From: Bacteroidetes bacterium RIFCSPLOWO2_12_FULL_37_12
GTDB lineage: Bacteria > Bacteroidota > Bacteroidia > 2-12-FULL-37-12
Assembly (NCBI GenBank): GCA_001769655.1
Contig: MEPC01000024.1
Location: 1 to 64,000, forward strand
Reading direction: 5' to 3'
DNA length: 64,000 nucleotides
Every line of letters begins with the position of its first letter. Position 1 is the stretch's first letter. Of this stretch, positions 5,735 through 39,308 are shown one piece after another. Below the pieces are notes generated by a model. It made no database searches. It worked only from the letters and a program-made list of their open reading frames with translations, and was not told the origin of the DNA. A program made the position numbers and the translations under genes.

Positions 5735-5770
5735 TATTACAATTAAACTATTATTAATAATCACTAAATC

Positions 5771-15319: not shown

Positions 15320-17956
15320 ATGAAAAATCATTTTATATCAAATTGGTTTTTACCATTTACCTTCATCCTGTTTTTCAATAATTTTCTCTCCGCTCAATGG
15401 AATTGGTCTAATCCTCCTCTGGGTGCAAATACCTTAAAAAGCATTTCTATAGTTCCCGGGAAAAGTGAACTTTTTGCCGTTGGGGATAAAGGTACACTGG
15501 TGAAATATAATTTTTCAGGCACCCAACAACAGAAAATATCACTTAATACTGAAAGAAATCTCAATAGTATTGTTTTTACATCCTCTACAACCGGGTATGT
15601 ATGTGGAACCAATAATCTGCTATTAAAAACATCAGACGGAGGTAATACTTGGGTTACACTTACCGCAGAATCTTTTTCAGATGAAGGAGATAATAATTCG
15701 CTTTATTTTTTTAATGACAGTGTAGGATTTCTTACCGGTAATATGAAGAAAATCCTTAAAACTACCAATGGTGGCTTGACGTGGGATACCTTGTCTTATG
15801 ACGTTCAATCGGGCTATCGGGAGTATTATTCCAAAATCTATTTTGTTAATTCAACTCTGGGTTTTATATCCGGTTATAGTAATGTTAATTACACTAAGAA
15901 ATATTTTTTGAGAACCCAAGACGGTGGGAACATCTGGGATACGTTGAATATCGGTAACCGCGTTATATCCAGTATTTCATTTGTTAACGATAGTGTTGGT
16001 TTTATTGGCGGTTCCTATTACAATTTCCCTTACAACTTTCTTTTTAAGACAGTAAATAAGGGTAATTCCTGGGATACAATTACACTTCCTCAAAGCAATA
16101 ACTTACAGACCATTTATTTTATAAATAAAGATACCGGATTAATTTTTATGAACGGATATATTTTCAGGACATTTAACGGAGGGGTAAGTTGGCTATCTTA
16201 TTACGAACCGAATTACTTGTACATGTATTCCGTTGCTTGTTTAACTAAAGATACTTTATTTGCAGTGGGGGAAGGAGGGCTTGTATTGCAAACTGTAAAT
16301 GGTGGCGCTCAGTGGGATCCTATATCTAAAAATAATGTAAATGATTTGGTTGATATTTCGTTTCCAAGTGATAGCGTAGGATATGCTGTGGGAAATGCCA
16401 ATGTATTTTTAAAAACAACGGACGGGGGTTTAACATGGAACAAAGTGAATGCAACTAATTTTATTAACAATCCTGTTAGTTTACATTTTATTTCAGAAGA
16501 CACCGGTTTTGTTACGGGGTATGCGGGTTTATTGCTTAAAACTATTGATGGAGGAATGAACTGGGCAAATCTGAATTCCGGTACTCCTTATTATCTTGGT
16601 GATATTACGTTTACAAGTAAACTCCGTGGCTTTGCAGTGGGTGGTAGCAGTCAGGATTCTCTGGGGGTGGTTTCCAAAACGGAAGATGGTGGGGCTACCT
16701 GGACATCTAACATAATTGCAAAAGATTTTTTTATGGCGGTTGATTTTCCCACTCAGAGTACCGGTTATATCGTTGGAGGTTATACCACCTCTCAAATTTA
16801 CAAATCTATGGATGGGGGTATGAATTGGGCTAAATTATCTTTTCCGGATTCAACTCAGATTGCGGCTGTCCATTTTATAAATGATACCGTTGGTTTTATA
16901 TCTGTTTATAACAAAGGAATTTATAAAACTACCAATGGGGGTATTACATGGAAAGCAAGTACTGCATCTTATCCCAGTGACATTTTTTTTGTTAATGACA
17001 GTACCGGTTATTCTACAGGGGGTTATGGGTTTATTTATAAAACAATTGACCAAGGTGAAAACTGGTTTATCCAAAGTTCACCAACAAATCTCTCGCTCAA
17101 TAAAATATATTTTACCAACCAGCAAAATGGGGTTATTTGTGGTGCTGATGGCGCTATTTTATACACATCCAATAGTGGGAAAAAATGCAATCCTGTAAAA
17201 TTTTCTGCATCCGATACATCCTTTTGTACTCCCGGATATAATATCCAGTTTAACAGTTGGGATTCAGGACAAGATAACTATTCATGGAAAAAAAATGGGA
17301 TACAATGGGGCACCTATAAAAACGGTAACTTAACATTTGATTCAGCAGGTATTTTTAAAATTACGCTTGTAGAGTCATCTCCTGAATGTGTAGATAGCGC
17401 TAATTTGTTAATTTATGCTTTTAAAACTCCTTCTGCATCGTTTGAATCTCAGAAATGGGATGCTGTGACGGTTAATTTTAAACATTCCGATTCTTTGGCT
17501 ACAAGTGTCTGGAAATGGAATTTTGGGGATAGTACTTACAGTACTGTTTCAAATCCCACCCATAAATACAGTGCGGATGGGAATTATAATGTTGCATTAA
17601 AAGTATTTTCAAAAGACAGTTGCAGGGATTCCTCGTTATATTCAATCAATATTAATTCAAGTGTGGATGAAAATGAATTTTTCGATTTTTCTTTTGATAT
17701 TTTTCCAAATCCCGGTACTAATTTAATAACATTATCTTTTGATGTAAAAGAGGCATCCCCTCTCTATTTCAATATTTATGATATTACAGGCAGAGAAATA
17801 AATAAATTTCAGTTTATTCCTTCTGCGCCCGGAAAAGGCATGATAGAATTAAATAACTATTTTAATGTCACTGATACCGGATTTTACCTGTTAAAAATAT
17901 CAAACCAGAAAAAAACAGCGTTTAAGAAATTGATTTATGACTCAGTCCATAATTGA
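15320..17956 (+). CDS. Secreted YCF48-like beta-propeller protein with PKD domain and T9SS type A tail
   Basis: 878 residues: signal peptide 1-25, then about a dozen repeats of the YCF48/photosystem II assembly-factor-like kind, each with an Asp-box such as KTSDGGNTW, KTTNGGLTWD or KTVNKGNSWD and a VGYAVG-type strand. A short Ig/PKD domain follows at about residues 705-775 (WKWNFGDSTYSTVSNPTHKYS). A T9SS type A sorting domain begins near residue 790 (FDIFPNPGTNLITLSF) and ends in KKLIYD. The export signal suggests a surface-anchored or released protein. It resembles the propeller protein at 144-2858 in architecture but uses a different repeat type. Function unknown. Confidence 0.9.
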   Translation: MKNHFISNWFLPFTFILFFNNFLSAQWNWSNPPLGANTLKSISIVPGKSELFAVGDKGTLVKYNFSGTQQQKISLNTERNLNSIVFTSSTTGYVCGTNNLLLKTSDGGNTWVTLTAESFSDEGDNNSLYFFNDSVGFLTGNMKKILKTTNGGLTWDTLSYDVQSGYREYYSKIYFVNSTLGFISGYSNVNYTKKYFLRTQDGGNIWDTLNIGNRVISSISFVNDSVGFIGGSYYNFPYNFLFKTVNKGNSWDTITLPQSNNLQTIYFINKDTGLIFMNGYIFRTFNGGVSWLSYYEPNYLYMYSVACLTKDTLFAVGEGGLVLQTVNGGAQWDPISKNNVNDLVDISFPSDSVGYAVGNANVFLKTTDGGLTWNKVNATNFINNPVSLHFISEDTGFVTGYAGLLLKTIDGGMNWANLNSGTPYYLGDITFTSKLRGFAVGGSSQDSLGVVSKTEDGGATWTSNIIAKDFFMAVDFPTQSTGYIVGGYTTSQIYKSMDGGMNWAKLSFPDSTQIAAVHFINDTVGFISVYNKGIYKTTNGGITWKASTASYPSDIFFVNDSTGYSTGGYGFIYKTIDQGENWFIQSSPTNLSLNKIYFTNQQNGVICGADGAILYTSNSGKKCNPVKFSASDTSFCTPGYNIQFNSWDSGQDNYSWKKNGIQWGTYKNGNLTFDSAGIFKITLVESSPECVDSANLLIYAFKTPSASFESQKWDAVTVNFKHSDSLATSVWKWNFGDSTYSTVSNPTHKYSADGNYNVALKVFSKDSCRDSSLYSININSSVDENEFFDFSFDIFPNPGTNLITLSFDVKEASPLYFNIYDITGREINKFQFIPSAPGKGMIELNNYFNVTDTGFYLLKISNQKKTAFKKLIYDSVHN

Positions 17957-23424: not shown

Positions 23425-24093
23425 ATGATAACCATTGAAAAAATCCAACATAAGGGGGAATACCGCATTGCGGTTCATTTTCCGAACAACCAATCTTTTA
23501 CCGAAAAAGTAAAAAAAATAGCCGATTCATTATGGAGCATGTCGCGGGGTACCTGGCATATACCCTATACTTTAAAATCCTATCAGGAATTATTAGAGAA
23601 ATTTCCGGGAATAAGACCGATGGAAAAGAAGGTGAATATCTCAACGAAAGATGAGAATGTAATTATCCATCAAAATAATAGTTTTCACGCAAAGGCGCAA
23701 AGTACGCAAAGGAATCTAACTGAAAATGAAATAGCAAAAATTTTGGTTAATATTTTTTTTAAGGTGCACCGAGTATTAGGACCAGGATTACTAGAATCAG
23801 TTTATGAAGCCGCTATCTGCTATGAATTGGATAAAATAGGAATGAAATACAAGCGTCAGGCAGAAGTTCCCGTATTTTATGAATCTGTAAAATTAGAATT
23901 AGGATTTCGTGCAGATATTATTGTGGAAGAAAAAGTTATAGTGGAAATAAAATCAGTTGAAACGATGTCAACTACTTTCCCCAAAATATTGCTCACTTAT
24001 TTACGAACGACAAACTTAAAATTGGGATTGCTTGTCAATTTCAATGTCGAATTGATAAAACAAGGAATAAAGAGAATTGTGAATAATCTATAA
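23425..24093 (+). CDS. Chimeric open frame: integrase N-terminal arm domain fused to a GxxExxY (PD-(D/E)XK-like) protein
   Basis: 222 residues in two unlike parts. Residues 1-66 (MITIEKIQHKGEYRIAVHF...) are nearly the same as the N-terminal arm domain of the broken recombinase at 24197. Residues 86-94 (HAKAQSTQR) are the translated left arm of the 23129-type repeat. Residues 95-222 are a GxxExxY-family protein: the name-giving motif is GPGLLESVYE, and the PD-(D/E)XK-like residues are in FRADIIVEEKVIVEIKSVE. The fusion probably arose when a repeat element carrying the GxxExxY gene inserted into an integrase gene copy. Whether the GxxExxY part starts from an internal codon (for example ATG at 23620) is unclear. 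GxxExxY proteins have no proven function; a nuclease role is inferred from the fold. Confidence 0.75.
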   Translation: MITIEKIQHKGEYRIAVHFPNNQSFTEKVKKIADSLWSMSRGTWHIPYTLKSYQELLEKFPGIRPMEKKVNISTKDENVIIHQNNSFHAKAQSTQRNLTENEIAKILVNIFFKVHRVLGPGLLESVYEAAICYELDKIGMKYKRQAEVPVFYESVKLELGFRADIIVEEKVIVEIKSVETMSTTFPKILLTYLRTTNLKLGLLVNFNVELIKQGIKRIVNNL

Positions 24094-24170
24094 GTTTGCA
24101 AAGAAAAAAATCATGAATGATTTTTTACTCTGCGGCTTAATTCTTTGCGTGCTTTGCGCCTTTGCTTGAA
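23681..24170. mobile_element. Gene-bearing version of the GTCACGCAAAG inverted-repeat element
   Basis: The left arm (TCACGCAAAGGCGCAAAG, 23685-23702, continuing to 23712) is followed by the GxxExxY coding part. After its stop codon come the inner palindrome TCATGAATGATTTTTT (24111-24126) and the right arm ending in CTTTGCGCCTTTGCTTGAA (to about 24170). The order is left arm, gene, inner palindrome, right arm. The three miniature copies have the same arms and inner palindrome without the gene, as expected if they are non-autonomous derivatives. Transposition has not been shown for this family. Confidence 0.6.
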
Positions 24171-24196
24171 ATAATATTTACACAACCATTACACTT

Positions 24197-25001
24197 ATGA
24201 TAACCATTGAAAAAATCCATCACAAGGGGGAATACCGCATTGCGGTTCATTTTCCCAGGGAAAAAAATCTTATAGATAAGTTAAGAACTATTCCGGGTAC
24301 GTTGTGGAGCCAGACAAAAACCACATGGCATATACCGTATTCAATGGATGCTTATAAAAAATTATTGGAATTATTTCCGGAGTTAAGATTGGCACAAAAA
24401 GAAACAACACGCAAATCTTCGAGGGTTTATTATAGGGCTAAACAAATAATTTATGAAGAAAAACAAAAACCTGCTATTTATAAAAAAGAGGATAAAAAAA
24501 ATCATTATAAAGTTTTATCTGAAACACAGGGCTATTTTATGCCTTGCATATTCCGGTGGATTAAGGGTTAGTGAATTAGTGAATATAAAAATTAGTGATA
24601 TTGACAGCAAAAGGATGGTAATCACATTGCGTCAAGCGAAGGGGAAAAAGGACCGGCAAGTAATGTTAAGCGAAAAATTATTAGAAATACTTAGAGTATA
24701 TTTTAAGGAATATAAACCAAGCACATTTTTATTTGAAGGACAGAGTAAAGAGCAATACAGTAAACGAAGCATAGAGGAAATAATTAAGAACGCAAAGAAA
24801 AAAACAGGGATAAAAAAGAAAGGGAGTATTCATGCTTTACGGCATAGCTTTGCCACTCACTTATTAGAGGGGGGGACTGATTTGATTACCATAAAGGAAT
24901 TGCTTGGACATGCCAGTTTAAAAACGACAGCTATTTACACACATGTGAGCACAAAACAAATCAGCAAGGTGCAAAGTCCATTAGACAAAATAGGGCTATA
25001 A
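24197..25001 (+). pseudogene. Tyrosine recombinase (integrase), frameshifted and internally deleted
   Basis: Two overlapping frames make up one recombinase. The first (24197-24571) starts MITIEKIHHKGEYRIAVHF and encodes the arm-binding N-terminal domain. The second (from about 24453 to the stop at 25001) encodes the catalytic domain with Arg I in YSGGLRVSELV, the Lys-containing beta-hairpin QAKGKKDRQVML, HxxR in HALRHSFATHL, and His/Tyr in LGHASLKTTAIYTHVS. All catalytic residues survive, but the frame changes between about 24450 and 24530, near an A8 run, and the usual core-binding (SAM-like) domain of roughly 90 residues between arm and catalytic domains is missing. It is therefore unlikely to work as a recombinase. 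Confidence 0.85.
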
Positions 25002-25514: not shown

Positions 25515-28500
25515 ATGGCAAAAAAAGTAAAAAAACAAAAGCAAGAACGAAAACCATTTCATCTTTTTAAGGGGATGTTGCGATTGGTTTCATCCGAGTT
25601 TGAAAAACGATTTAATAATTTCAATAACGAGCATCAAGTATTTACAGAGTTGGGGTGGTCAGTTGATTCAAATAGGAATGGACTTCTTATTGACTTATCT
25701 CAAATCAGGTGGGTTGAACTTGGTGCAGCAGCACAACTTGTTTTACTTATTGAAAGTGCGAAGAAACAAGGATTGAAAATCATGATTGCTTTGCCTCTTA
25801 ATAAATTAAGTAAAGGAGAGAGTGAATCATTGGTTAAAAGCAAAGCCAACTCAGATACAGAATTTCAAAAAAAGTCAGAAGTATTTGAAGGATTGAGATT
25901 ATCAAGAGAGTATGCAAAAAATTATTTATCAAATATTCAGTTTCAGAGAACATCGGTTTGTCCGCATATAAAAACTGGTGAAGTTGTATTTACAGAGGAT
26001 TATCAATTTGAAGCCGAGAAAACAAACGAATCTGAAACTGAAATAGAAAAGAAATCCGCAAGCGAAATATTACGAAGAATAAGAAGACCTGATGAGATTG
26101 GCTACAGATTTCTTATTCCTCTTACTTGGTTGAAAGCAAAACAGCACAATCACAGTTTAGATTTTATTGAAGAAAAATTTACAGATGTATTGAGTCAATC
26201 TGAACGAGGACTTGATGCTATTGATGCACAAGCGATAAAAAATGTAATCATAAATGAACTTTTAAAAAATGTTAGGGAACATTCTAAATGTGATGATGCG
26301 TTAATTTGCGTTGCGTTACAGCCGAGTAAAATACTTACCGCAAACGACTATTTGCCATGCGAAAGAAACTTTATTGAGTGGACAAGTAAAACGAACACAA
26401 ACTATATTTCAATTTTTTTCGGGGACAATGGAGATGGCTTGTGCAGAACACTTGAGCCAGCATTTAAGTCCAACTCTAATGAAAAAGCTAATGACTATAA
26501 TATTATTAAATGGGCATTTGATAAATGGTCAACAAGCAAAACTGATGAAACTCTTAGGGGTACCAAAGGGCTTTACAGAATTCTCAGGATAATTAATAAA
26601 TACAATGGACTAATCGCTATAAGAACTGCTCATGAAAATGCAGGATTTCAAAAAGGCGGTCTTGAAAGTTCAAAGTTTGTTCACCAAACGATAGAAAATA
26701 AAAAAAGTCTGAACATCGGATTGCTTCCCGGGACATTTTTGAAAATGCAATTTTCTCCATTCAAGGAGTTAATAAAATTCAATATTACACCTCATATTGC
26801 TCAATACAAACAAGACGATGATTATAAGTGGGTAACAAAAACAATCCGATTAGATACAAGGAATCCAAAAGAAACTTTCGTTAACGATTTATCGGTAAAA
26901 AAACTTTTCGGAGAACAAAAAACTAATGTTCTCATTTTGATTGATGCAAAAAACAGTAAACTTTCAAAACCTGATGAAATAGAAGATTCAATAAAAAATC
27001 ATCTTTTGCATTTAAGTGAAGCAAGACACCCAAACGGTGTTGTTGTTTATGGCTTCCCAACAGGTTGGGAGAATATTGAAACAATTGTAAATTCTGTCAA
27101 CTCGTTAATTCAAGAGAAAAGAATAAAACCAGAAGTAGATTCTGAAGCTATTCATCCAGACAAAGAAGATATTTATGACCCTGTTCTTGTGTTAGGTGAG
27201 AACCGTCAATTCTGTTGGGTAGGAGACGACACAAATATTATTTCATGCCTCAATGAGCTTTATCGTAGTGAACAGCCCCCCAAAAAAATTACTAAATTAG
27301 AATCCTTTAACTCGCTTGATTTAAAATCACAGACAAGAGTATTACAATATTTCATGAGTGATGATGCAGTCGTAACTTTGGAATATGGTCAAGCATTACG
27401 GTTTAACTTTAGCAATCTTAAAAATCATTTTTCAGAGCAACTAAAACTCAAGCTAAATGAAACAATAAAGGAACATAAGGAGAATCAAAAATATTATGTA
27501 ACTCCTAATTTACGCAATGTAAAATATTGGGTGAACATTGATAATCTTATAAAGGGTGACATGAAAGGATATGCTTTTGCACTGAGTTCAGCACTAAAAG
27601 AAATTGATTCAACACTTCCTGAAAATCTCACCAATTACAAAATACTAATTGACAACCAAGATTCATTTCAGTTGGCAGTAGAGTTTTCAGGTTGGATAGG
27701 AATACCAAAAAAAAATATTATCAATTTCAATGATGAAGTTGATGGACGATTACCAAGACGAAATCCAATTTTTGAGGAGAAAGACAATGTAATAATTCTT
27801 ACAACAATTATTTCTACAAAAGAAACTGCAAGAAGGTCTTTGAAAGCAGTGTTAAGAGATTTGGCTAACCCTATTGCTGTGTTAGGCATAATAAACCAAA
27901 GCAATGATATACCCATTGCTGCATGGGATAATAAAAGACCGACAGTATCACTTATAAATAATGTTGATTTTGAAATTTCACAAGAGGAAATTTCAAAGCA
28001 CAACTTACAACCAATTTTCAAAGCACCTTTTGGCTACAGTGATGAACCGACTGACAATGAATCAAAACCTGACAAAGAGATTGAAAAGATTTACAATTTA
28101 ATAACCGAACAAAAAGCGTTACATTTTAGCCATATAGGGAAAACAAACAGCCGACATTTTACTTTCTATCTTAGTGCAACAAGATTATTGAACGATGAAG
28201 AGAAATCTGAGAAATTAATTTACGGAAAGTTTTATGACAGAATAAAAGAATGGCTTGATGATATAGGAGAAAACACATTTGACATTTGGAGACCAACTCC
28301 AGATTTTAAATTATTAAATCCAGTAAATAAAATCACAAATAAAATTTCTAACTATTTTGCGGAAAAAAGAAAATACAAGTGCAACAATATTTCCGAAATT
28401 AAACGAGTAGCAAATTATGGTGAATGGAGTTTGATGAACCCAAGGGAGTATCAGATGAATCCTTGTGAAAATATTGTGATTGTAGATTGGGGAAGTTTAA

Positions 28501-30506
28501 CAGGCAACACCACCCAACAAATGATAAATCTTGCAGCACAAGAAGGGAAGAAAAATATACTTGTCTGCATTTTATTTTCTCAATTACCTTCTAAAGAGGA
28601 AGAATTTTTAATAAACATAAAAGAAGTAAAAGGGCAAAAGAAAAAAAATAAACAAACATTGTTTGAAGCACCTGTAATCAGCGAAATAAGTTCAGCCGTT
28701 TCTGTTAATTTCTTTTATCGCCTTCCTCTAAGGAATTATGAATCAGCTGACTGTCCTATATGTGAACACATCCATGCATTAAGAGAGTTTGAAATTAAAG
28801 GCGAGCACATGAGTGACTTCTACATGAAAAGAAGGGAGCGTTTAAAAATTAAAGACAAGGATAAAGCAGATTTACCGCCCCAGGACTTTTATGCTAACGA
28901 TAATATCTTTTTAGATTCAGAAGTGATTCTGCACATGTTCAAGTTTCGTGTTTTATTACAAGAAGCACTTTTGTCAACGAGAAAAAGAAAAGAGATAGAA
29001 GATTACTTCGTTAAGATTTTTCAAAATATTGAAAAAGAAAAAATAAATCCAAAGTCAGAGATTTATTCCATCCTCTATTTTTTATCTACTGAAATAATGT
29101 GGATGCAAAAACCCCCTTTAGTTTTCCTAAGTATTCGTAAAACTCTTTCCCAAATTGCTAAAACTATTGCAGTTTGGAAATTGGAAGAAGCAAGAGATTT
29201 CTTTTTTGATGAACCGACCTTAGTTCGTTACAAGTTTGCGGCAATTAGTGTTCTTAGGTCATCAGATAAAAACGAATTTAATCTTTCAATACATGATATT
29301 TTCGCAAGTGCTAAGAGAGGAGATTTATACTCTCATTCTATAACGCAAAATCTTTTTTATCATACCTACTCCTATTTAAAAAGACAATATCATACTTCAA
29401 GTGAATACTTTGATATTGTAATAAAAAAACTTGATTTGATTTTAAAAGAAAATAATCTGAGTAGCAAATTAAAAAACGTCATTATTTTCTTGCGATACTT
29501 TGCAGAGAAAAGAAAATTTGAAATTGCAATTCCATCTGATACAAAAATGTCAGCGTTTAATAGCTACAAGAAACAAATCATAGACAACTACGGACTAAGC
29601 TACAAGCATAATAATGTCAGCGATGATTTCACAGAGGTGAAACCTATTGATTACTTACAGATGTTGCAAACTCACCATGAAAAGAATTTGTCAGAAGAAA
29701 ACTTAAAATCAATTATTGAAAATTCAGGGTTTGTTAACTGGCTCAGTATAGTTCCGAAAAGATGGTCTGATGTCGCTGCATATCTAAACAATGTCGTAAT
29801 AAATCACTTTGGCAAACTTGATGATTTAGTAAACTCAAAACTATTTTCTTCAAGTGACACTTTGTTTGCAACATTTATCCGACAAATGTTATCCGAGAAA
29901 AAACTATTTGGTGTCAATGACGAATTGACTTTGCAGATTAACGATATTATTACAAACTCTTCTATACTCGGAAGCCGAAGTTTCTTTAATCGCTTCATAA
30001 GTACATGGAATTTTTACTACCAAAGTTTCATGCATGTGAATGCACATGCACCAGCATTATCATGTCCATTGGTTAAAATCGCTGAACAAGCTCCTTGTAA
30101 TTTTTTAGACGCGGTTAATAAGTCAATTGGCGAATCTGAAAGAAAAGCAAAAGGTCAAAATATAAAAATCGATTTTAATTGTAAAATAACCAATGATGCG
30201 AAAATATTTTTTCCGTATAGCCAGCTTAAACGCTTTTTTGACCAAGTATTTTTATATAATCTCTTTACTCATCATATAAATGGGCAAACAATAACAGTTG
30301 CGGTTGAGCAGATTTTAAAATCAGATGAAAGTATCACAATTAGAATAAGCAGTAAGGGAACAAAGCCAAAGGAAAGAAACAGTGGAGGACTAAATAAATT
30401 CGTTACTGAGTTTGCACTGTTCGGAGGACATTTGAATTACGACTATAACAAATCAAGAAAAGAATTTTTAATTGATATTAAACTATTAATTTGGAAAGAT
30501 GAGTAA
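25515..30506 (+). CDS. 1663-residue multidomain STAS / GHKL-ATPase / PRTase-like protein, putative conflict-system sensor
   Basis: No named family is recognised for the whole protein. Visible parts: a basic N-terminus; a STAS-like strand-helix segment at about 55-95 (GLLIDLSQIRWVELGAAAQL); a GHKL/histidine-kinase-type ATPase domain at about 235-420 with N box NELLKNVREHS (247-257), G1 box GDNGDGL (303-309) and G2 box RGTKGLYRI (348-356); two PRTase-like Rossmann segments, NVIILTTIIST (758-768) and NIVIVDWGSLTGNTTQ (986-1001); a CPIC knuckle near 1080; a long helical region; and a second degenerate GHKL-like C-terminus (about 1500-1663). No phosphoacceptor His box of a classical kinase precedes the ATPase. 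It overlaps the next gene by 8 bp, so the two are translationally coupled. Role inferred: signal sensing and ATP-dependent switching. Confidence 0.7.
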   Translation: MAKKVKKQKQERKPFHLFKGMLRLVSSEFEKRFNNFNNEHQVFTELGWSVDSNRNGLLIDLSQIRWVELGAAAQLVLLIESAKKQGLKIMIALPLNKLSKGESESLVKSKANSDTEFQKKSEVFEGLRLSREYAKNYLSNIQFQRTSVCPHIKTGEVVFTEDYQFEAEKTNESETEIEKKSASEILRRIRRPDEIGYRFLIPLTWLKAKQHNHSLDFIEEKFTDVLSQSERGLDAIDAQAIKNVIINELLKNVREHSKCDDALICVALQPSKILTANDYLPCERNFIEWTSKTNTNYISIFFGDNGDGLCRTLEPAFKSNSNEKANDYNIIKWAFDKWSTSKTDETLRGTKGLYRILRIINKYNGLIAIRTAHENAGFQKGGLESSKFVHQTIENKKSLNIGLLPGTFLKMQFSPFKELIKFNITPHIAQYKQDDDYKWVTKTIRLDTRNPKETFVNDLSVKKLFGEQKTNVLILIDAKNSKLSKPDEIEDSIKNHLLHLSEARHPNGVVVYGFPTGWENIETIVNSVNSLIQEKRIKPEVDSEAIHPDKEDIYDPVLVLGENRQFCWVGDDTNIISCLNELYRSEQPPKKITKLESFNSLDLKSQTRVLQYFMSDDAVVTLEYGQALRFNFSNLKNHFSEQLKLKLNETIKEHKENQKYYVTPNLRNVKYWVNIDNLIKGDMKGYAFALSSALKEIDSTLPENLTNYKILIDNQDSFQLAVEFSGWIGIPKKNIINFNDEVDGRLPRRNPIFEEKDNVIILTTIISTKETARRSLKAVLRDLANPIAVLGIINQSNDIPIAAWDNKRPTVSLINNVDFEISQEEISKHNLQPIFKAPFGYSDEPTDNESKPDKEIEKIYNLITEQKALHFSHIGKTNSRHFTFYLSATRLLNDEEKSEKLIYGKFYDRIKEWLDDIGENTFDIWRPTPDFKLLNPVNKITNKISNYFAEKRKYKCNNISEIKRVANYGEWSLMNPREYQMNPCENIVIVDWGSLTGNTTQQMINLAAQEGKKNILVCILFSQLPSKEEEFLINIKEVKGQKKKNKQTLFEAPVISEISSAVSVNFFYRLPLRNYESADCPICEHIHALREFEIKGEHMSDFYMKRRERLKIKDKDKADLPPQDFYANDNIFLDSEVILHMFKFRVLLQEALLSTRKRKEIEDYFVKIFQNIEKEKINPKSEIYSILYFLSTEIMWMQKPPLVFLSIRKTLSQIAKTIAVWKLEEARDFFFDEPTLVRYKFAAISVLRSSDKNEFNLSIHDIFASAKRGDLYSHSITQNLFYHTYSYLKRQYHTSSEYFDIVIKKLDLILKENNLSSKLKNVIIFLRYFAEKRKFEIAIPSDTKMSAFNSYKKQIIDNYGLSYKHNNVSDDFTEVKPIDYLQMLQTHHEKNLSEENLKSIIENSGFVNWLSIVPKRWSDVAAYLNNVVINHFGKLDDLVNSKLFSSSDTLFATFIRQMLSEKKLFGVNDELTLQINDIITNSSILGSRSFFNRFISTWNFYYQSFMHVNAHAPALSCPLVKIAEQAPCNFLDAVNKSIGESERKAKGQNIKIDFNCKITNDAKIFFPYSQLKRFFDQVFLYNLFTHHINGQTITVAVEQILKSDESITIRISSKGTKPKERNSGGLNKFVTEFALFGGHLNYDYNKSRKEFLIDIKLLIWKDE

Positions 30507-32112
30507 CCGAAAATTTAAAATAATTCATTGGGACGATGATAGCGTAATGAAGGGCTTCATTACAGGAACAATACCAAGCGTTCTTAAAGAGTTTGAATGC
30601 GAAGTTGAACAAGGAGATTTCTTTGATTCAAGTGTGCAGTTTGTTGAAAGGTTGAAGAATGTAAAATATGACTTGGTTATTCTTGATATTGAAAATGAAA
30701 CCGACAAGGACAATAAATCTGATGTAGGATTTGAGCTACTGAATGATGTAATTACAACATACAAGAACTCTATTCCGCTCTTAATTTTCTCCCGACACCC
30801 AAGAGTTTTAGAGAAAGTTGGGGAATTCAAAAAAGCACACAATCTAAATATTGAGTTCTTGAATAAAGGACTGAGAGGGGAACCGGCATATCAACAAAGA
30901 GTAAAAGAGAAACTAAAATTATTATTAAATCTTGGTTACCCCGAAGTTAAACTTCTACCCTACAATGATTTTAAAACTAAATCCGCTGTCAAATCAATTG
31001 GACTACACAACTTACAAAGTATTATCTCTCTTTATCTGAGTTCAAAATCAATCCTGAGTAATGACAAGGTTAGTATCAAAGTGATTGCACCTGGTTATTC
31101 AGGTGCGTATGTTTTTGAAGTGGTATTTGGTTCTTTAAGCAAGTTGCTTAAAATTTCTCATGATAAATCCGTTATCGTAAGAGAATATGAAAACCTAAAT
31201 TCATACTCTACATTTTTACCATCCAAAATTAAAATTGATTACGATAAAATTGACCCTACTCAACTTTCTTCCGAAGGATGGTATCCGATTTTTTATGAGT
31301 TGGTTTCATATTCAAATACTCTTTTCGGGTTCATTGCTAAAAACCAGAACCAACATTCAGAAATTGAAGCACTTTTAGCAGAGATATTTTCGGACGAAAG
31401 ATTTTTAAAATTATATCAACACAGAAAAGAATTTGACATCGTAATAAACAAAAATATTTTGGAAGACATTGATAGTGTAAGAGCTTCTTTTATTGAAAAC
31501 GCAGTGAAGACATTAGAACCAATCTTAAAAAAACACTCAAATATTTTTGATAAAAGTATAATTGACATAATCACTGAGCATCATTCCTTTGGAAATATCT
31601 CTGATGCGAAAATTGGAATTCCAAAGTCAAATAAAATCCTATCACATGCGGACTTGCATGCAGATAACATTCTTGTAGATTCTCAAAAATCTCCAATAGT
31701 AATTGACCCCGGCAGTATTAATTACAAATACTGGTCTTATGATATAAACCGACTTTTAATGGATTTATTTATTCGTGGAATCGGACACCAGACACTTGAC
31801 TACTTCGACATTAATTCTATTAAAAAGGATTACAGCATATTTCAAAACATACTTACACGACAAGCAATTCAGGTTGAAAATTTCAAAAGCGATGAAGGTT
31901 TTATTACCGCAATAAATTGGCTTATCAAGAATGTTACAGAGATTCACAAGACAGATTTTGTTGAATGGCAATATCAATTAGGACTTGGGCTTGAGTTATT
32001 GAAGGCATCGTATAAGAGTATTTCACTTCCTGCAAACAAGAGGGCATTGGCTTTATTGTGTGCATGTGAAGCAATAAAAAAAGCAAGTGCAACTTTGGAA
32101 ACAACAACATGA
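30499..32112 (+). CDS. Response-regulator receiver domain fused to an APH-like kinase
   Basis: 537 residues. Residues 1-125 are a receiver domain with the full phosphorylation set: acidic D12-D13, phosphoacceptor D63 (VILDIE), S99 (LLIFSRH) and K123 (FLNKG). Residues about 195-500 resemble the aminoglycoside phosphotransferase/choline kinase fold: a GYSGAYVFEV nucleotide loop (199-208), LLKIS strand (216-220), catalytic loop HADLHADN (383-390) and metal-binding IDPGS (402-406). A helical tail follows. No DNA-binding domain is present. The upstream GHKL protein would be the natural phosphate donor or switch for the receiver, although it lacks an obvious His box. It may belong with the kinase-like ternary-complex-associated domains predicted for bacterial conflict systems; that link is from memory and unproven. 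Confidence 0.8.
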   Translation: MSNRKFKIIHWDDDSVMKGFITGTIPSVLKEFECEVEQGDFFDSSVQFVERLKNVKYDLVILDIENETDKDNKSDVGFELLNDVITTYKNSIPLLIFSRHPRVLEKVGEFKKAHNLNIEFLNKGLRGEPAYQQRVKEKLKLLLNLGYPEVKLLPYNDFKTKSAVKSIGLHNLQSIISLYLSSKSILSNDKVSIKVIAPGYSGAYVFEVVFGSLSKLLKISHDKSVIVREYENLNSYSTFLPSKIKIDYDKIDPTQLSSEGWYPIFYELVSYSNTLFGFIAKNQNQHSEIEALLAEIFSDERFLKLYQHRKEFDIVINKNILEDIDSVRASFIENAVKTLEPILKKHSNIFDKSIIDIITEHHSFGNISDAKIGIPKSNKILSHADLHADNILVDSQKSPIVIDPGSINYKYWSYDINRLLMDLFIRGIGHQTLDYFDINSIKKDYSIFQNILTRQAIQVENFKSDEGFITAINWLIKNVTEIHKTDFVEWQYQLGLGLELLKASYKSISLPANKRALALLCACEAIKKASATLETTT

Positions 32113-32301: not shown

Positions 32302-33732
32302 ATGGCAAATCTTGAAAAAAAATACTACATCAATGTAGGAGCAAATGGAACATTTGCAGATTCTGGACAAGTTCACTCAACACCTTCTGATGTTGAAGAT
32401 ATTTTTAAATTCCTTAATGACAGCGACATTGAAAAACTTCTGATATATTTTCATGGAGGTTTGGTAAGTGAGAAAAATGGAATGAATGCAGCAGAATTAA
32501 TGAAAAATTATTTCGCTGATGTAAATTCAAAAAGACATGTTGTTTCCTTTGTTTGGGAAACTGGTCCGATTGAGACAGTTGTCCAAAACCTGAAAGATTT
32601 AAAGGAGTTGACAGGAAAAGATTTGTTTGAGGAAGTAATTAAATTTGTAATCAAAATTGTTGCTAAAAAACTTGGAATATCAGATGCAAGAGGCGATGGA
32701 GAATATTTAAGTGACACAATCATTAAAGAAGAAAAAAATAAAGTTGCACCATTTGAAAATCTTGACAAAGATTTAGGAACAAGAGGCGGTGCAATTATTG
32801 ACATTGATGATGAAGATGAAACATACAGCGAATTTTACAAAAAGTTAGAAGCAGAATCCAAAAATCTTTTGGATAATGAAGCATCTGACGAATTGAAAAA
32901 TATTAATGAGGATAATGAAGAAGTAAGCAGAGGTGGCTTTTTAGTTATAGCGAAAATTGTTGCTCAAATAGCTTTTGCTGTATTGAAACGCTATTGGAAG
33001 AAAACTCATCACGACTTTTATCCTACAGTAATGGAAGAAGCATTCCGAAAAATTTATTTGGATAAAATCGGGCACTGGGGCTGGAAACAAATGAAAGACA
33101 AATCGGATAAAATGTTTCAAAGCAATTCAGGACTTTCGGGAGATGCTCAATATGCCGGAGCATTCTTTCTTGCACTGCTTGACATGCATACAAAAAACAG
33201 AGTAACAGCAGGAAAGAAATTTGAAGTGGAATTAATTGGACATAGTGCAGGTTCCATTGCAATTTGTAACTTGCTGGAGGCAACAGGAAAAAACTTTCCA
33301 TCAATCAGATACAACAATATTTTCTTCCTTGCTCCTGCCTGCCGCACAGATTTGTTTCTTGAAAAGGGAAAGGCAGCAAAGGAGAAAGGATTATTTCAAA
33401 AGTTCAAAATGTTTACAATGGAAGAAAGCAATGAGAAGAAAGACTATTGTATTCCATTCATCTACACACATTCGTTACTGTATATGGTTTCAGGATTGTT
33501 TGAGGATGAAATTGATGCTAAAATTATGGGACTTCACGAACAGTTTAAAGCAATAGGACGCTATTCTGATTTTGACGAGTTGAAGAAATTGAATTCGTTT
33601 ATCAATGATAACAAACTTGTTCTTTCAACCGACACAACAAACACGGATGAAAGTATGCGTTCAAACTCTTTAAAGCATGGAGATTTTGACAATGATGACT
33701 ACACTTTAAAATCAATCTTGAAAAGCATTTGA
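32302..33732 (+). CDS. Predicted serine hydrolase (lipase/esterase fold), putative effector
   Basis: 476 residues, cytoplasmic, no signal peptide. An alpha/beta-hydrolase frame is visible: strand LLIYFHGGLV with an HGG oxyanion motif at 51-53, a large helical and acidic insertion (about 90-305), nucleophile elbow ELIGHSAGSIA with S315 in GHSAG, and strand NNIFFLAPACRTDLF near 340 that could supply the acid. The C-terminal His is not certain (one candidate is in LKHGDFDNDD). Lipases and esterases are common effectors in bacterial immune systems, but the family is not recognised here. It is the first gene of a three-gene unit, 2 bp ahead of the caspase-like gene. Confidence 0.75.
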   Translation: MANLEKKYYINVGANGTFADSGQVHSTPSDVEDIFKFLNDSDIEKLLIYFHGGLVSEKNGMNAAELMKNYFADVNSKRHVVSFVWETGPIETVVQNLKDLKELTGKDLFEEVIKFVIKIVAKKLGISDARGDGEYLSDTIIKEEKNKVAPFENLDKDLGTRGGAIIDIDDEDETYSEFYKKLEAESKNLLDNEASDELKNINEDNEEVSRGGFLVIAKIVAQIAFAVLKRYWKKTHHDFYPTVMEEAFRKIYLDKIGHWGWKQMKDKSDKMFQSNSGLSGDAQYAGAFFLALLDMHTKNRVTAGKKFEVELIGHSAGSIAICNLLEATGKNFPSIRYNNIFFLAPACRTDLFLEKGKAAKEKGLFQKFKMFTMEESNEKKDYCIPFIYTHSLLYMVSGLFEDEIDAKIMGLHEQFKAIGRYSDFDELKKLNSFINDNKLVLSTDTTNTDESMRSNSLKHGDFDNDDYTLKSILKSI

Positions 33733-33734
33733 TT

Positions 33735-34793
33735 ATGAACTATGCAGTTGTAATAGGCATTGACCACTATGACAAAAAACCTTTATCGGCTGCTGTAAGC
33801 GATGCAAAAGGGTTTGCTAAATATTTGTTTAGCAAAAAACTTGTTTCAGGGTCTGCTGATACCATAAATAAATTTAAGGACGAGCATACTGAAATAAATA
33901 TTGATAAGGCACTCCAAGACAACACAGGAACTGATAACCTTAAACTTTTATTGTCCGATACTGACAATCAAATTGCAGATAATAAAGATATTGATAAGGC
34001 GATTGACGATGTTATACAAGATGCAAAAAAACACAGAGCAGAAAAAAATCGCTTGTATTTTTATTTCGCTGGTCATGGCATGGGTGTTACTTATGATAAA
34101 ACAGCATTGTGTTTAAGATTTTGGCCAAATTGGTTTAATCACTGCATTTCAAGTTCTGATTACAAATCTTGGTTAATAAACAAAGGAGTGTTTGATGAAA
34201 TTCTGATTTTTCTAGATTGTTGCAGAGAGTATGACCAAAATATAGATGCAAAGTCTCCTTTTCCCGATTGGGAAACGCCTATTGGCGACAAATCTCCAAA
34301 CATCCTTATTTGTAATGCCACCATGTATGGCAAACTCAGTTTTGAAGTAGGTGCTGATAAAAAAAGAGGAGCATTCACATCTTTCTTAATTCAATCTTTG
34401 AATGGTGATGCAGACAGAAAAAACGAAGGAATAATAACTTCAAACTCTTTAAAAAATCACATCAATAATAATTTTGAAACTTATGCCACACAGCAGGGCA
34501 AGTATCAGCGAGGTGATGCCTTCACTCAAGGAACTAACGGAGATGCTATTGTAATTTGCGAAGTTGAAAACTTAGTTTCAGCACATAATTGTGAAATCAC
34601 TTTTAAGAGAAATTCAAATGTTACATTAAAAGGTAGAGATACTAAACCTATACGAACAGATGATGTTACAGAAGGCGATAAATGGAATTGCAAATTGGAA
34701 CAGGGCTTTAGCGTTTTGATTGACAACCACACCAACGAAAAGAAGTTAATTGAGAATTATTCTGAAAATACAATGAGCTATGTTAAGTTCTGA
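33735..34793 (+). CDS. Caspase-family (C14) cysteine protease
   Basis: 352 residues from the ATG at 33735; a TTG six bases upstream is also in frame but would overlap the previous stop. The N-terminal ~260 residues form a caspase/metacaspase domain: VVIGIDHYDKKPLSAAVSDA opens it, the catalytic His is H114 in YFYFAGHGMG, and the catalytic Cys is C163 in IFLDCCREYD. A beta-rich region (about 275-352) follows. Caspase-like proteases in bacteria act in signalling and abortive-infection pathways, activated by partner proteins. The gene is bracketed tightly by the hydrolase gene (2-bp gap) and the next gene (14-bp overlap), so the three proteins are probably made together. Confidence 0.88.
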   Translation: MNYAVVIGIDHYDKKPLSAAVSDAKGFAKYLFSKKLVSGSADTINKFKDEHTEINIDKALQDNTGTDNLKLLLSDTDNQIADNKDIDKAIDDVIQDAKKHRAEKNRLYFYFAGHGMGVTYDKTALCLRFWPNWFNHCISSSDYKSWLINKGVFDEILIFLDCCREYDQNIDAKSPFPDWETPIGDKSPNILICNATMYGKLSFEVGADKKRGAFTSFLIQSLNGDADRKNEGIITSNSLKNHINNNFETYATQQGKYQRGDAFTQGTNGDAIVICEVENLVSAHNCEITFKRNSNVTLKGRDTKPIRTDDVTEGDKWNCKLEQGFSVLIDNHTNEKKLIENYSENTMSYVKF

Positions 34794-36174
34794 AAATAAA
34801 TATCATGTTACTATTTCTTTCAATCAAAGAATTGAAGGAATACTGTTGTCCCTCGTTAACGGCATTTTAGAAACCGTTTACACAGGAGTTGCGGAGCAAT
34901 TAAGTTTAGAATTGCCAGTAGGCATTTACAAACTGAGAGCAAAGTTTATTGACTATATGCAAGAGTATCCTTTAATCATTGACGAAAACAAGAACTTCCG
35001 TTTAGATTTTGATTATCCTTCTGTTGCACCAATACTTTCATTCAGAACCACGCACGAATACTTTCACGGCAACTGCGAATACTTTAGCAAATTCACAACT
35101 GAAAAAGAAGAAAAAGCAAATCCAAGTTTATTATTTTTTGGAGCGAAATATGACAAGGATAAGTTCCAAAATGTCATAATGGAAAAACTGCTTTCCAATT
35201 ATTCAGTAATCAACAGCGATAACGAAACCCTTTCTCAATTCGACTCGGTAAATGCAAAGTTTAGTAATGACTATGGATGGTTGGCATTTTCAACCAAACT
35301 ACAAAATGGACAATATTTTTTGAAGTGGAACAATGAATCTGAATGCAGAATTTTTCCATTTTACATTTTTGACAATTACCAAACACAATTTTTTATTCGT
35401 TACTCAACATTGCCTGACTTTGAAAACTGTTTTTTCTTTTATACAAAGAAAATGTGTTTTAGTGTTGATGCAGAAGAATACCTTGTGCTCGACAAAATTC
35501 TTTTCGCATTCAAAGATTACAGCAACTATAAATTATTGACTGAAAAAGATATAAGCATCATTCAGCAACACCCCTACTTAGTTACTCTTATTCATATTCT
35601 TCAATCGGAACTAAGTGAAAAACTTGACTGCGAAGATTGTGAACATTTACTGTTGCCTGACTTAATACTTCTTTCGGACAATCCGAATGAAATTGAAAAT
35701 GATGAATTACTCCCTGTGATTTCATCGGTTATGAATAAATACTCCTATAACAAAAAAAATAAAAAAGTATCGTTCAAACCTGCTTCCTTAATTGACAGGA
35801 CAATTGACCATGTTAGATACGATTTGTTTTGGAATAACTTTTCAAAAATTGACAACACAATTGATTGGTTAGACCTGTATTCAAAGTTTATAAATAAATC
35901 TGATTTGTTTCCAGTAAGCAAAAGCGACAATCAAATTGTAAAACTAGGTAAGCGGGTTGCGAATAAATTTGCAAAGGCAAACAAAGACACAATTGAAGTA
36001 AGATTAAATTCCCTTATTGGTAAAATACAAGTTGAAAATTTTGAGAGTAATATAAACGAAACATTTAACAGTATCGGAGATGTATCTGAAATTGCAGACA
36101 AGCTAAACCTACCACCGACTAAAGTTTTGAGAAACTATGAAACTTACAAAGGAATTTATGACAAACTTAAATAG
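34780..36174 (+). CDS. Unknown partner protein of the caspase-like protease
   Basis: 464 residues, no recognised family. The N-terminal ~85 residues look like a small beta-sandwich (YHVTISFNQRIEG, VGIYKLRAKF, NKNFRLDFDY) that resembles in pattern the C-terminal beta region of the caspase-like protein. The middle is mixed alpha/beta with several aromatic-rich strands (FYIFDNYQTQFFIRY). A cysteine pair lies in LDCEDCEHLL near residue 285. The last 30 residues (SEIADKLNLPPTKVLRNYETY) have a helix-turn-helix-like pattern. It starts inside the end of the caspase gene, which indicates coupling. It could be the recognition or adaptor subunit for the protease; this is inference from position only. 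Confidence 0.7.
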   Translation: MLSSENKYHVTISFNQRIEGILLSLVNGILETVYTGVAEQLSLELPVGIYKLRAKFIDYMQEYPLIIDENKNFRLDFDYPSVAPILSFRTTHEYFHGNCEYFSKFTTEKEEKANPSLLFFGAKYDKDKFQNVIMEKLLSNYSVINSDNETLSQFDSVNAKFSNDYGWLAFSTKLQNGQYFLKWNNESECRIFPFYIFDNYQTQFFIRYSTLPDFENCFFFYTKKMCFSVDAEEYLVLDKILFAFKDYSNYKLLTEKDISIIQQHPYLVTLIHILQSELSEKLDCEDCEHLLLPDLILLSDNPNEIENDELLPVISSVMNKYSYNKKNKKVSFKPASLIDRTIDHVRYDLFWNNFSKIDNTIDWLDLYSKFINKSDLFPVSKSDNQIVKLGKRVANKFAKANKDTIEVRLNSLIGKIQVENFESNINETFNSIGDVSEIADKLNLPPTKVLRNYETYKGIYDKLK

Positions 36175-36568: not shown

Positions 36569-37539
36569 GTCAGATTGTGAAAAAACCTATTTTTTTAAGA
36601 TTTCCATTTTAAAATCCCGTTTTAAATTCTATTACAACCCACCAGAAGCATTAAGAGCTTTTCATTTTTTCATGCCGCAAGTCGATATGAAAAATTTACT
36701 GGTGCCACAACACCTCGCATTGTGTCACTTTTTTTCAAAAACAAAATTTTCCCTCCTTGGTTGAGCATATTTTTATAATCCGGTTTCCATTTCTTCAACT
36801 TTTTTAATAATTTTTTAACCCCAACTATTGAAATCGTTCGTCTTAAATTGTAGCAGATAAAAATGATTCCCATCTCTCCGTCCACTTTTTGTAATCCTTT
36901 GAGTAAGGTGTATGTAAATCCCCATTGTCGTTTAATCGTGCCAAAGGTATGCTCGCAAATTTGTTGCCGTCTGTTATAAAGCTCTCTTTGTGTTTTTATT
37001 CTGAAATTATTTCTATCCACAGCATCCTGATTTTCGTTCCGCTCAATTACCCTTCCTCTTCCTTCCGTATTTTTTGTACATTGATTTAATACGGGACACA
37101 TTTGGCAGAAGGGCGTTTTGTAATGTTTCACTCTTGTGGTTCCCCCTGTTTTTCGTTTTTCACTCCGATGACTTTTTTTATACCAGCTCCCGTTGGTTTT
37201 AAGTAGTTGCCCCTGTGGACAGAGGTAGGTATCATTCTTCGGATTGTACTGGAAATTTTCTACGAGATATTTTTTGTCTAAATGTTTTACCGATGGCTGT
37301 TCTCTGAATGCCACAACTGTGGTGATATTTACAAAAATGTGTTCAAGAAGTTCCTGAGAGAACTTATTTTTTTATTTTCCGAATTTTTGATTTCCCTAAA
37401 AGCAAAATACTACCACAGGTTGATTCCAAATTTTTAATTTTCATTCCGCTCTATTTTTTTTTCCTTCCGTATATCGCTTATATTACATACGATTTTTGTG
37501 TATTTTTGCTGGTGAAAGGTAGTTTTTAGACGGACTGCC
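36569..37539 (-). mobile_element. IS1182-type insertion sequence, internally deleted (IS-A)
   Basis: One end begins GTCAGATTGTGAAAAAAC at 36569; the other, read inward from 37539, begins GGCAGTCCGTCTAAAAAC. These match at 12 of 18 positions and are taken as terminal inverted repeats. The element is 971 bp, well short of a full IS1182 element, and only the C-terminal part of the transposase remains. Its left end also occurs at 43539-43582, and its right ~300 bp at 39445-39770. Confidence 0.7.
36670..37314 (-). pseudogene. Truncated IS1182-family transposase (C-terminal part)
   Basis: 214 residues matching the C-terminal half of IS1182/DDE_Tnp_1_6 transposases: NFQYNPKNDTYLCPQGQLL, a Cys-rich YKTPFCQMCPVLNQCTK, the E-containing RQQICEHTFGTIKRQWGF and the FICYNLRRTISIVG tail. 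Full-length relatives are roughly twice as long and carry the first two acidic catalytic residues upstream; that part is missing, so the protein should be inactive. The 37315-37500 stretch upstream contains no further transposase frame. Confidence 0.85.
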
Positions 37540-37585: not shown

Positions 37586-37614
37586 TTGATTTGAGATAAA
37601 AAGTTGTATTTTTG
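37586..37614 (+). promoter_or_regulatory. Promoter placed directly at the HTH-ImmA/IrrE gene start
   Basis: TTG (37586-37588), an 18-bp spacer and TATTTTTG (37607-37614) match the Bacteroidota promoter pattern. The downstream ATG at 37621 is only 6 bp past the -7 box, so the transcript would have almost no leader. Confidence 0.6.
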
Positions 37615-37620
37615 CAATAT

Positions 37621-38799
37621 ATGGTAGAAAAGGCATACATAACGGCAAAGGTCTTTAAATGGGCAAGAGAATCAGCTAAAATGACTGAAGAAGTTGCTAC
37701 ATCTAAAGTTGCCGTTTCTATTGATAAGTTCAAGGATTGGGAAAATGGAGAAGATTATCCGACCATTAGACAGGCGCAGACTTTAGCGAAAGCGTATAGA
37801 AGACCATTTGCATTATTTTTTCTGCCTGATGTACCAACTGATTTTCAACCTCTTCAAGATTTCAGGAAAACAGGCTCAAAAGAATTAAGTACATCTTCAA
37901 TTTTCATAATTCGAGAAATACAACAAAAACAAGCTTGGATTAGCGAAGTAAACGAAGATAATAATGAAAACAAAGTTCCATTTATTGGCAAATTCACAAT
38001 TAGAGATAATCCAGTACTTGTTGCCAATGATATCCTCATTACGCTAAATATCAACCCACTAAATTATAAATCTAATAATCCAATCATCGAATGGATTGAT
38101 AAAGCTGAATCTAATGGGATTTTTATTTCAAGGACTAGTTTTATCCATTCAAGGCTAAAGTTGGACTCAAATGAAATTCAAGGTTTCGCAATTGCAGACA
38201 ACTTTGCTCCTTTTATATTTATTAATTCAGAGGATTGGAATGCTCCTCAATTATTTACTTTAGTTCACGAACTTTCTCACCTTTGGATTGCCGAGACGGG
38301 AATATCAAATGACGTAGAGCCATCAATAAAAAATGCGGGTGATTATAATCCAATTGAATTATTCTGCAATGAAGTTGCTGCAAACGCATTAATGCCTAAA
38401 GAATTCATTGACAGTCTTGACAGTAAGGCTTTTGATAATGCAAAAGAAGTTTTTAAAAATGCTAAAATAATTGGGGTTAGCTCTTTTGCATTATTAGTTA
38501 GAGCATTAAACCTTAACATTATTTCATTAAGTGCATATAAACAATTGAAGCATTTAGCCGACATTGAATATAACGAATTCTTAAAAAGAGAAGAAGCAAA
38601 AAAAATAAAGCAGAAAGAGAAAGAAAAACCAGGCGGGCCAAATTATTTTTTACTGCAACTAAACAGAAATAGTCGATTATTTACACAAACTGTATTAGAT
38701 GCTTTTCGTGGAGGGGTAATTGAACCATCCATGGCAAGTAACTTATTAAATGTTCAGGTAAATAAATTTCCCAAACTTGAAGCACAAATGTACAGATGA
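37621..38799 (+). CDS. HTH (XRE) and ImmA/IrrE metallopeptidase domain protein
   Basis: 393 residues from the ATG at 37621; an in-frame TTG at 37612 lies inside the -7 promoter box and is not used here. An XRE-like HTH at about residues 8-65 is followed by the LFFLPDVPTDFQPLQDFR hinge typical of this family, and an ImmA/IrrE zinc peptidase domain with HELSH at 216-220 and a downstream Glu in FCNEVAANALMP (ligand Glu). Proteins of this type cleave or regulate repressors and antitoxins. The stop overlaps the next gene's start by 4 bp (ATGA), a common arrangement in which this protein is the regulator or antitoxin of a PIN-like DUF4411 toxin. Confidence 0.9.
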   Translation: MVEKAYITAKVFKWARESAKMTEEVATSKVAVSIDKFKDWENGEDYPTIRQAQTLAKAYRRPFALFFLPDVPTDFQPLQDFRKTGSKELSTSSIFIIREIQQKQAWISEVNEDNNENKVPFIGKFTIRDNPVLVANDILITLNINPLNYKSNNPIIEWIDKAESNGIFISRTSFIHSRLKLDSNEIQGFAIADNFAPFIFINSEDWNAPQLFTLVHELSHLWIAETGISNDVEPSIKNAGDYNPIELFCNEVAANALMPKEFIDSLDSKAFDNAKEVFKNAKIIGVSSFALLVRALNLNIISLSAYKQLKHLADIEYNEFLKREEAKKIKQKEKEKPGGPNYFLLQLNRNSRLFTQTVLDAFRGGVIEPSMASNLLNVQVNKFPKLEAQMYR

Positions 38800-39308
38800 G
38801 TATAATTAATAAAAAATTCTGCTTAGATGTTAATGTGCTTATTCAAGCATGGCAAAAATACTACTCCCCAAAAATATGCCCAAGTTATTGGGATATGCTT
38901 AATGAGTTGGGAGCTAATAATATCATCTTCATGCCTGAGATGGTTTATGATGAAATTGTTCGAACAGATGATGATTTGTCAAAATGGTTGAAGTCCAGTA
39001 AAATTCCGATTAGAAAGATTGACGAGCAAGTAACGAAATGTTTAAAAGACATCTATTCAGCTGACCCAAACCACAAATATTTTGTTGATAATACAAAGGC
39101 AAGGTCATTGGCTGACCCATGGGTGATTGCACATGCATTAAGAGAGAACGCAACAGTCGTTACAAAGGAAGAAAAAGTAACAGCATTAAATACTACGAAA
39201 ATTAAAATTCCTAATGTGTGTGAAAATATGAATGTATTTTGGATTAATGATTTTCAATTGATTGTTGAGTTAGGGATTATGTTTAAATGTGAAATGGAAA
39301 CAAAATAA
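38796..39308 (+). CDS. DUF4411 PIN-like protein, putative ribonuclease toxin
   Basis: 170 residues. The first acidic residue is D11 in FCLDVNVLI, with further conserved acids in MVYDEIVRTDDDL and SLADPWVIAHAL (residues near 105-110), which match the PIN-domain acidic site as seen in DUF4411. The family is predicted to cut RNA and commonly follows an HTH-ImmA/IrrE partner, as here with a 4-bp overlap. Toxicity is inferred from the pairing and not visible in the sequence. Confidence 0.85.
   Translation: MSIINKKFCLDVNVLIQAWQKYYSPKICPSYWDMLNELGANNIIFMPEMVYDEIVRTDDDLSKWLKSSKIPIRKIDEQVTKCLKDIYSADPNHKYFVDNTKARSLADPWVIAHALRENATVVTKEEKVTALNTTKIKIPNVCENMNVFWINDFQLIVELGIMFKCEMETK

Follow-up and report, generated by a model that had tools for sequence, protein, structure and literature searches.

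The window, a stretch of 64,000 nucleotides of contig MEPC01000024.1 of Bacteroidetes bacterium RIFCSPLOWO2_12_FULL_37_12, contains a giant gene and, overlapping its end, a partner gene that had been overlooked in the initial annotation (Table 1). The giant reading frame is open throughout, its translation matches the earlier description, and the minus strand opposite to it is stop-rich.

The neighbours of the pair include transposase and integrase remnants, and the GC content of the region is 0.32-0.34 versus about 0.38 in the flanks. Upstream, at 23425-25001, two ORFs have near-identical starts (MITIEKI.HKGEYRIAVHFP), the second continuing in another frame into a tyrosine integrase; the arrangement suggests an integrase gene with a frameshift and, next to it, a partial copy. 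An IS transposase remnant (DDE_Tnp_1_6, 1e-19) is located within the island on the minus strand, at 36670-37314. The pair is followed by three co-directional genes (32302-36174), encoding an alpha/beta-hydrolase-like protein, an EACC1-associated caspase (PADLOC caspase model, 3.1e-18; NCBIfam, 2.5e-9) and a 464-aa protein, which possibly form a second conflict module. The hydrolase and caspase genes were dropped as candidate members of the system because they adjoin the pair in none of the other loci described below. Further downstream, at 37612-39308, an XRE-ImmA/IrrE-type gene (PADLOC RmrA, 1.4e-16) overlaps a gene for a DUF4411 PIN-domain protein in a toxin-antitoxin-like arrangement.

Table 1. 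Features of the giant gene and its partner gene in the window
Feature	Coordinates	Strand	Remarks
Giant gene	25515..30506	+	ATG start, 1663 aa; STAS-like / GHKL / linker / PRTase 1 / PRTase 2 / helical region / histidine-kinase-like C-terminus; eight further full-length homologues
STAS-like segment, residues 14-110	25554..25844	+	From profile, model secondary structure and alignment
GHKL ATPase 1, residues 225-415	26187..26759	+	N, G1, G2 and GT boxes invariant in nine giants
Linker, residues 420-690	26772..27584	+	Invariant W568-x-G570 (alignment); low model confidence
PRTase segment 1, residues 690-830	27582..28004	+	PRPP loop degenerate in the window giant (LTTIISTKET)
PRTase segment 2, residues 862-1085	28098..28769	+	In the loop, VDWGSLTGNT, a single acid and the TGxT remain; conserved CPxC at the end
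All-helical region, residues 1131-1520	28905..30074	+	Secondary structure of a low-confidence model
Degenerate histidine-kinase-type CA domain, residues 1524-1663	30084..30503	+	From Foldseek; N1582 invariant, G1 Asp lost
Partner gene, 537 aa	30499..32112	+	Receiver and APH-type kinase; overlaps the giant gene by 8 nt
Receiver (REC) domain	30499..30873	+	D13, D63 and K123 invariant in four REC-bearing partners; PDB profile matches are response regulators
APH-type kinase domain	31066..31818	+	HADLHADN...IDPG intact; Pfam APH 2.8e-6

Domain architecture of the giant protein

Searched alone against Pfam, PADLOC, NCBIfam and PDB, the giant protein matched no significant family, and NCBIfam gave two sub-threshold PRTase hints at residues 749-824 and 985-1023. 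The initial annotation had read the polypeptide as a chain of STAS-like, GHKL ATPase and two PRTase-like segments with a second GHKL-like C-terminus. Translation, profiles and fold searches bear out this layout, the STAS segment being its weakest call. Conservation was assessed in an alignment of nine giants: that of the window and those of loci L005, L006, L024, L025, L026, L042, L043 and L044.

The three best PDB matches of the STAS-segment profile are MlaB STAS chains (E 0.29-0.36), which is suggestive only of a STAS-like fold. In the alignment an aromatic residue, W or F, is kept at position 66, whereas Ser is not kept at the beginning of the second helix, the place of the phosphorylatable residue in SpoIIAA-type STAS domains.

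In the first GHKL domain, the N box (E248-x3-N252-x3-H256), G1 (D304xG306xG308), G2 (G352-L353) and GT box (G406-T407), as well as G365, are invariant in all nine giants. The spaced four-box pattern was found in each of six giants examined and in none of 3000 shuffles of the window giant protein; with a slightly relaxed N box it is present in all nine. The alignment contains no conserved phosphoacceptor His, the only invariant His being H256 of the N box, in agreement with the earlier observation of intact boxes without a His phosphoacceptor box.

A profile-profile comparison linked this domain to stand-alone STAS-GHKL proteins neighbouring DUF4325 genes (E 1.2e-6). CapK and VapK are STAS-GHKL kinases of immune operons whose own STAS domain is not the substrate; CapK is activated by ssDNA, which is bound by CapK W68 and VapK F54 (PMC13373217). 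The giants share with them the order of STAS and GHKL in one chain, as judged for GHKL through the stand-alone proteins and for STAS by the weak profile matches, and the aromatic residue of the giant STAS segment may be the counterpart of W68 and F54. Unlike CapK and VapK, the giant carries 1200 further residues and is paired with an effector in place of a transcription factor; no HTH was found in it. No gene for a CapS/VapS STAS substrate adjoins the window pair, and of the nine loci only L042 has a DUF4325 STAS gene close to the pair (positions 5763-6092, directly after the effector gene). A stand-alone STAS-GHKL gene matching the N-terminus of PADLOC DrmA (1e-13) occurs in the same island as the L024 pair, at 16297-17040. 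Both genes are possible CapKS/VapKSC relatives.

The initial annotation had compared the N-terminal part with a SpoIIAA/SpoIIAB anti-sigma switch fused into one chain. The giants do share with SpoIIAA/SpoIIAB and RsbW the combination of STAS and GHKL and the E-x3-N-x3-H type of N box; they differ in having both modules in a single chain, and no sigma factor was seen. Such a switch is unlikely and was rejected because the phosphorylatable Ser is not conserved across the nine giants. CapK and VapK are the closer analogue.

Evidence for the PRTase fold was obtained from several sources. The L006 giant matches Pfam Pribosyltran at 3.7e-8, exceeding the gathering score, and in L006 and L025 NCBIfam PRTase models match at both segments. 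In the PDB, the profile of segment 1 matched HGPRT (5.5e-4) and that of segment 2 a purine PRTase (0.0095). In Foldseek, all top 50 matches of a model of residues 1-1131 have the PRTase fold, with orotate PRTase leading (1.4e-4), and PRPP synthetase 3mbi, of which the tandem arrangement of the giant is reminiscent, was aligned across 409 columns. This model is of low confidence (mean pLDDT 39.9), and its matches are given weight because they agree with the sequence evidence.

The segments proposed earlier as phosphate-binding loops, IILTTIIST from about residue 759 and IVDWGSLTGNTTQ at 988-1000, align with NDVISTG and DDGxxTGxT, the canonical forms of the PRPP loop in homologous giants. In the window giant itself, neither loop keeps both acids together with the TG. 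The state of the loops differs between two clades, named here after their effectors. In the PNP clade, loop 1 reads [NC]D[VL][IF]STG, being the canonical NDVISTG in most giants, and loop 2 reads D[SD]GSxTGES or nearly so; the loops of L006 are also near-canonical. In the APH clade (window, L005 and L044), loop 1 is LTT[IV]IS and has lost both of its acids in all three giants, and loop 2 is D[WF]G, with the second acid missing from each of them; in L005 the TG is gone as well. The decay of the PRPP site next to an invariant ATPase argues against catalysis in the APH clade and for a part in structure or in the sensing of a ligand, whereas the near-canonical loops make catalysis possible in the PNP clade. 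Compared with orotate and hypoxanthine PRTases and PRPP synthetase, the giants have the same fold and loop motifs, but embedded in a signalling protein and with the PRPP-loop acids lost in the APH clade. PRTase folds are known to serve as regulators, as in PurR, PyrR and GfcR. The NCBIfam scan of the L006 and L025 giants included a weak match to the GfcR model.

All top 50 Foldseek matches of a model of residues 1131-1663 are histidine kinases (best E 1.6e-7). The CA domain of MprB superposes with TM 0.68 of the target at 3.7 Å; the model is of low confidence, with pLDDT of about 60-80 across the part matching histidine kinases. The Asp and GxG of the G1 box are gone in nearly all giants, and Asn N1582 is the only invariant N-box residue. 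The C-terminus is thus GHKL-like, as the initial annotation had it, and has the CA-type ATP-binding fold of histidine kinases with a degenerate G1; it is not a second SpoIIAB-like ATPase.

Homologous loci and their effector genes

A survey of 1,991 genome slots in one phylum yielded eight further full-length giants of 1572-1867 aa from distant families of the phylum. With the window giant as a single-sequence query, the phylum sample gave one full-length homologue, from Chlorobium ferrooxidans DSM 13031 (31% identity, E 4.6e-148), plus one remote match, and 4 of 396 genomes matched, two of them weakly; profile searches added three more giants and then another three. In the class of C. ferrooxidans, one of 98 genomes encodes a giant. 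Single-sequence searches of plasmid, phage, viral-contig and genome-contig collections found no relative, nor did scans of plasmids, phages and viral contigs with the relatives as queries. The family is rare and patchy. A short decayed copy with in-frame stops (L045, contig positions approximately 11588-11944) lies at a contig end.

In all nine loci an effector gene is located directly downstream of the giant gene on the same strand, with a gap of at most 9 nt or an overlap. The overlap is 8 nt in L005 and L044, as in the window; gaps of 9, 6 and 4 nt occur in L006, L025 and L043; and the partners in L024, L026 and L042 overlap the giant gene by a length that varies with the start codon chosen. 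The type of effector is not constant. Two of the eight further loci, L005 and L044, encode a receiver-APH protein like that of the window (Pfam APH 8.1e-6 and 6.1e-6, respectively), one (L006) a receiver with an HD-like C-terminus, and five (L024, L025, L026, L042 and L043) a PNP-family nucleosidase (PNP_UDP_1, 1.1e-7 to 1.3e-12). The acid pocket, phosphoacceptor Asp and Lys of response regulators are present in all four REC-bearing partners, with the L006 receiver matching Pfam Response_reg at 4.7e-9, and the partners of the window, L005 and L044 have the HxDxxxxN motif and metal-binding Asp of APH-type kinases. The C-terminus of the L006 partner is HD-like by motifs alone, as Pfam and PDB searches found no HD domain in it. 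The N-terminal 130 aa of the five PNP-class effectors are conserved among them and share a hIHxG-like motif, and no known fold was matched; a degenerate receiver was considered for this part and found unsupported, no receiver being detectable.

In a maximum-likelihood tree of the giants, the APH and PNP classes lie on opposite sides of a branch with 100% bootstrap support, L006 forming a long branch of unsure position. Effector type therefore follows the phylogeny of the giants.

Most of the loci are situated amid defence genes, including type I and II restriction, Wadjet, SoFic and caspase genes, as read from the neighbour genes locus by locus. In L024 the pair sits between hsdS and hsdR, with Wadjet JetC and JetD upstream. 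L006 adjoins a type II gene for a cytosine methyltransferase and another that resembles nicking endonucleases, SoFic is found near L005 and L025, hsdR and PDC-S54 near L043, and a NACHT protein near L042; L026 has only integrase-like remnants. The link to conflict systems raised by the initial annotation thus finds a basis in the surroundings of most homologues.

The two-gene system resembles Detocs in outline. Like Detocs, the defensive two-component system, and the PADLOC candidate PDC-M60, it combines a GHKL-bearing sensor with a swappable effector. Effectors fused to a receiver occur in four loci, among them the receiver-APH protein of the window, and the PNP effectors of the five relatives have PDC-M60C, which we infer to be DtcC, as their best PADLOC match (5e-30 to 4e-38). 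Unlike Detocs (DtcA/B/C), it comprises two genes rather than three, has no phosphoacceptor histidine kinase corresponding to DtcA, carries PRTase domains in the giant and, in the window, has an APH effector. Membership in Detocs was rejected because both the number of genes and the kind of sensor differ; none of the giants had a good match among the PADLOC models. The partner kinase also shows a weak resemblance to the TCAD9 group of APH-like kinases, known from ternary conflict systems (PMC7159879), with L005 matching at 2.9e-5, below the cut-off, but the system has no MoxR, vWA or VMAP partners and its kinase is preceded by a receiver.

Proposed function and alternative explanations

The constant adjacency of the effector and the mostly defence-rich neighbourhoods suggest that the giant is probably the sensor half of a bacterial immune system. 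We consider it rather probable that the two genes form a defence system of the abortive type in which the giant is the sensor, holding or controlling the dedicated effector encoded by the overlapping next gene. The invariance of the first GHKL domain, together with the degenerate PRPP-loop acids and C-terminal kinase, fits a receptor better than an enzyme, and the best reading of the giant is an ATP-gated nucleotide-state sensor that activates its effector. The initial annotation had allowed the PRTase-like folds to be either effectors or sensors; the second role is the more likely one because a dedicated effector gene adjoins the giant in every locus.

In the resting cell, the histidine-kinase-like C-terminus would dock the receiver, or the N-terminal domain of the PNP-class effectors. 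Infection may alter the nucleotide or PRPP pool or expose nucleic acid, a change that the PRTase pair would register together with the STAS-GHKL module; a nucleic acid trigger might act in the groove of the latter, much as ssDNA activates CapK (PMC13373217). Binding and turnover of ATP at the first GHKL domain would then reshape the giant, so that the effector is freed or activated. The APH-type kinase, the active site of which is intact in the window locus, may stop growth by phosphorylating a small molecule or some component of the cell. The effectors of the PNP clade would strip nucleotides, by analogy with the PNP of Detocs, which cleaves ATP (PMC11249213), and of Cap17. Against a single docking mode for all effectors counts that the PNP-class N-termini are not demonstrably receivers. 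Both the defence function and its trigger are inferences in this scheme.

Alternatively, the PRTase domains could be enzymes that respond to infection by producing a nucleotide second messenger, which switches the effector on; such synthesis has been proposed for the PRTases of the Ter system (PMC7824862). The near-canonical PRPP loops of the PNP clade and L006 agree with this possibility, but the loss of the loop acids in every APH-clade giant, including that of the window, does not, and the effectors contain no known nucleotide-sensing domain, yet are operon-coupled to the giant. We judge this explanation unlikely. Slightly less credit is given to a true two-component relay, in which the giant would be a histidine kinase phosphorylating the receiver of its partner. 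The CA fold of the C-terminus and the receiver residues D13, D63 and K123 are what such a relay needs, whereas the lack of any conserved His beyond the N box, the loss of G1 from the C-terminal domain and the PNP-class partners without a detectable receiver speak against it. In its classical His-Asp form the relay was rejected on the residues missing from the nine-giant alignment; the first GHKL domain could still act in some other way as a kinase of Ser/Thr or Asp residues in the partner.

It is improbable that the pair regulates nucleotide metabolism, for housekeeping or under stress, with the giant sensing PRPP or purines and the effector adjusting metabolism: the regulatory use of PRTase folds elsewhere and the metabolic nature of the PNP and APH enzyme families would suit that role, but not the very patchy distribution, with one genome of 98 in one class, the restriction, Wadjet and Fic neighbours or the swapping of effectors. 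An arrangement like that of toxin and antitoxin, with a giant that only neutralises the effector and senses no infection, would account for the obligate adjacency and overlap, but is very improbable, as ATPases of 1600-1870 aa with at least five domains are unlike antitoxins and the intact ATPase speaks for an active switch.

The component parts of the giant are known already, and no model or paper was found that describes the whole combination, an earlier description in the conflict-system literature being possible. Only tentatively, then, do we propose a new immune architecture: a cytosolic receptor of 1600-1870 aa, in which tandem PRTases, catalytically dead or partly so, read the nucleotide or PRPP state of an infected cell, and in which effectors that can be exchanged for one another are set free by way of a GHKL motor and a dock of pseudo-histidine-kinase type, namely an APH-type kinase, a PNP nucleosidase or an HD-like protein. 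If correct, this would be a new type of immune sensor, with a metabolic-enzyme fold turned into a receptor that gates the ATP-driven release of its effectors. It would bring together the nucleotide-depleting PNP effectors of Detocs and Cap17, the STAS-GHKL immune kinases CapK and VapK, and the PRTases suspected in conflict systems. The nine loci offer ready giant-effector pairs for cloning, and the sensing of infection through nucleotide or PRPP levels would become a testable question in bacteria.
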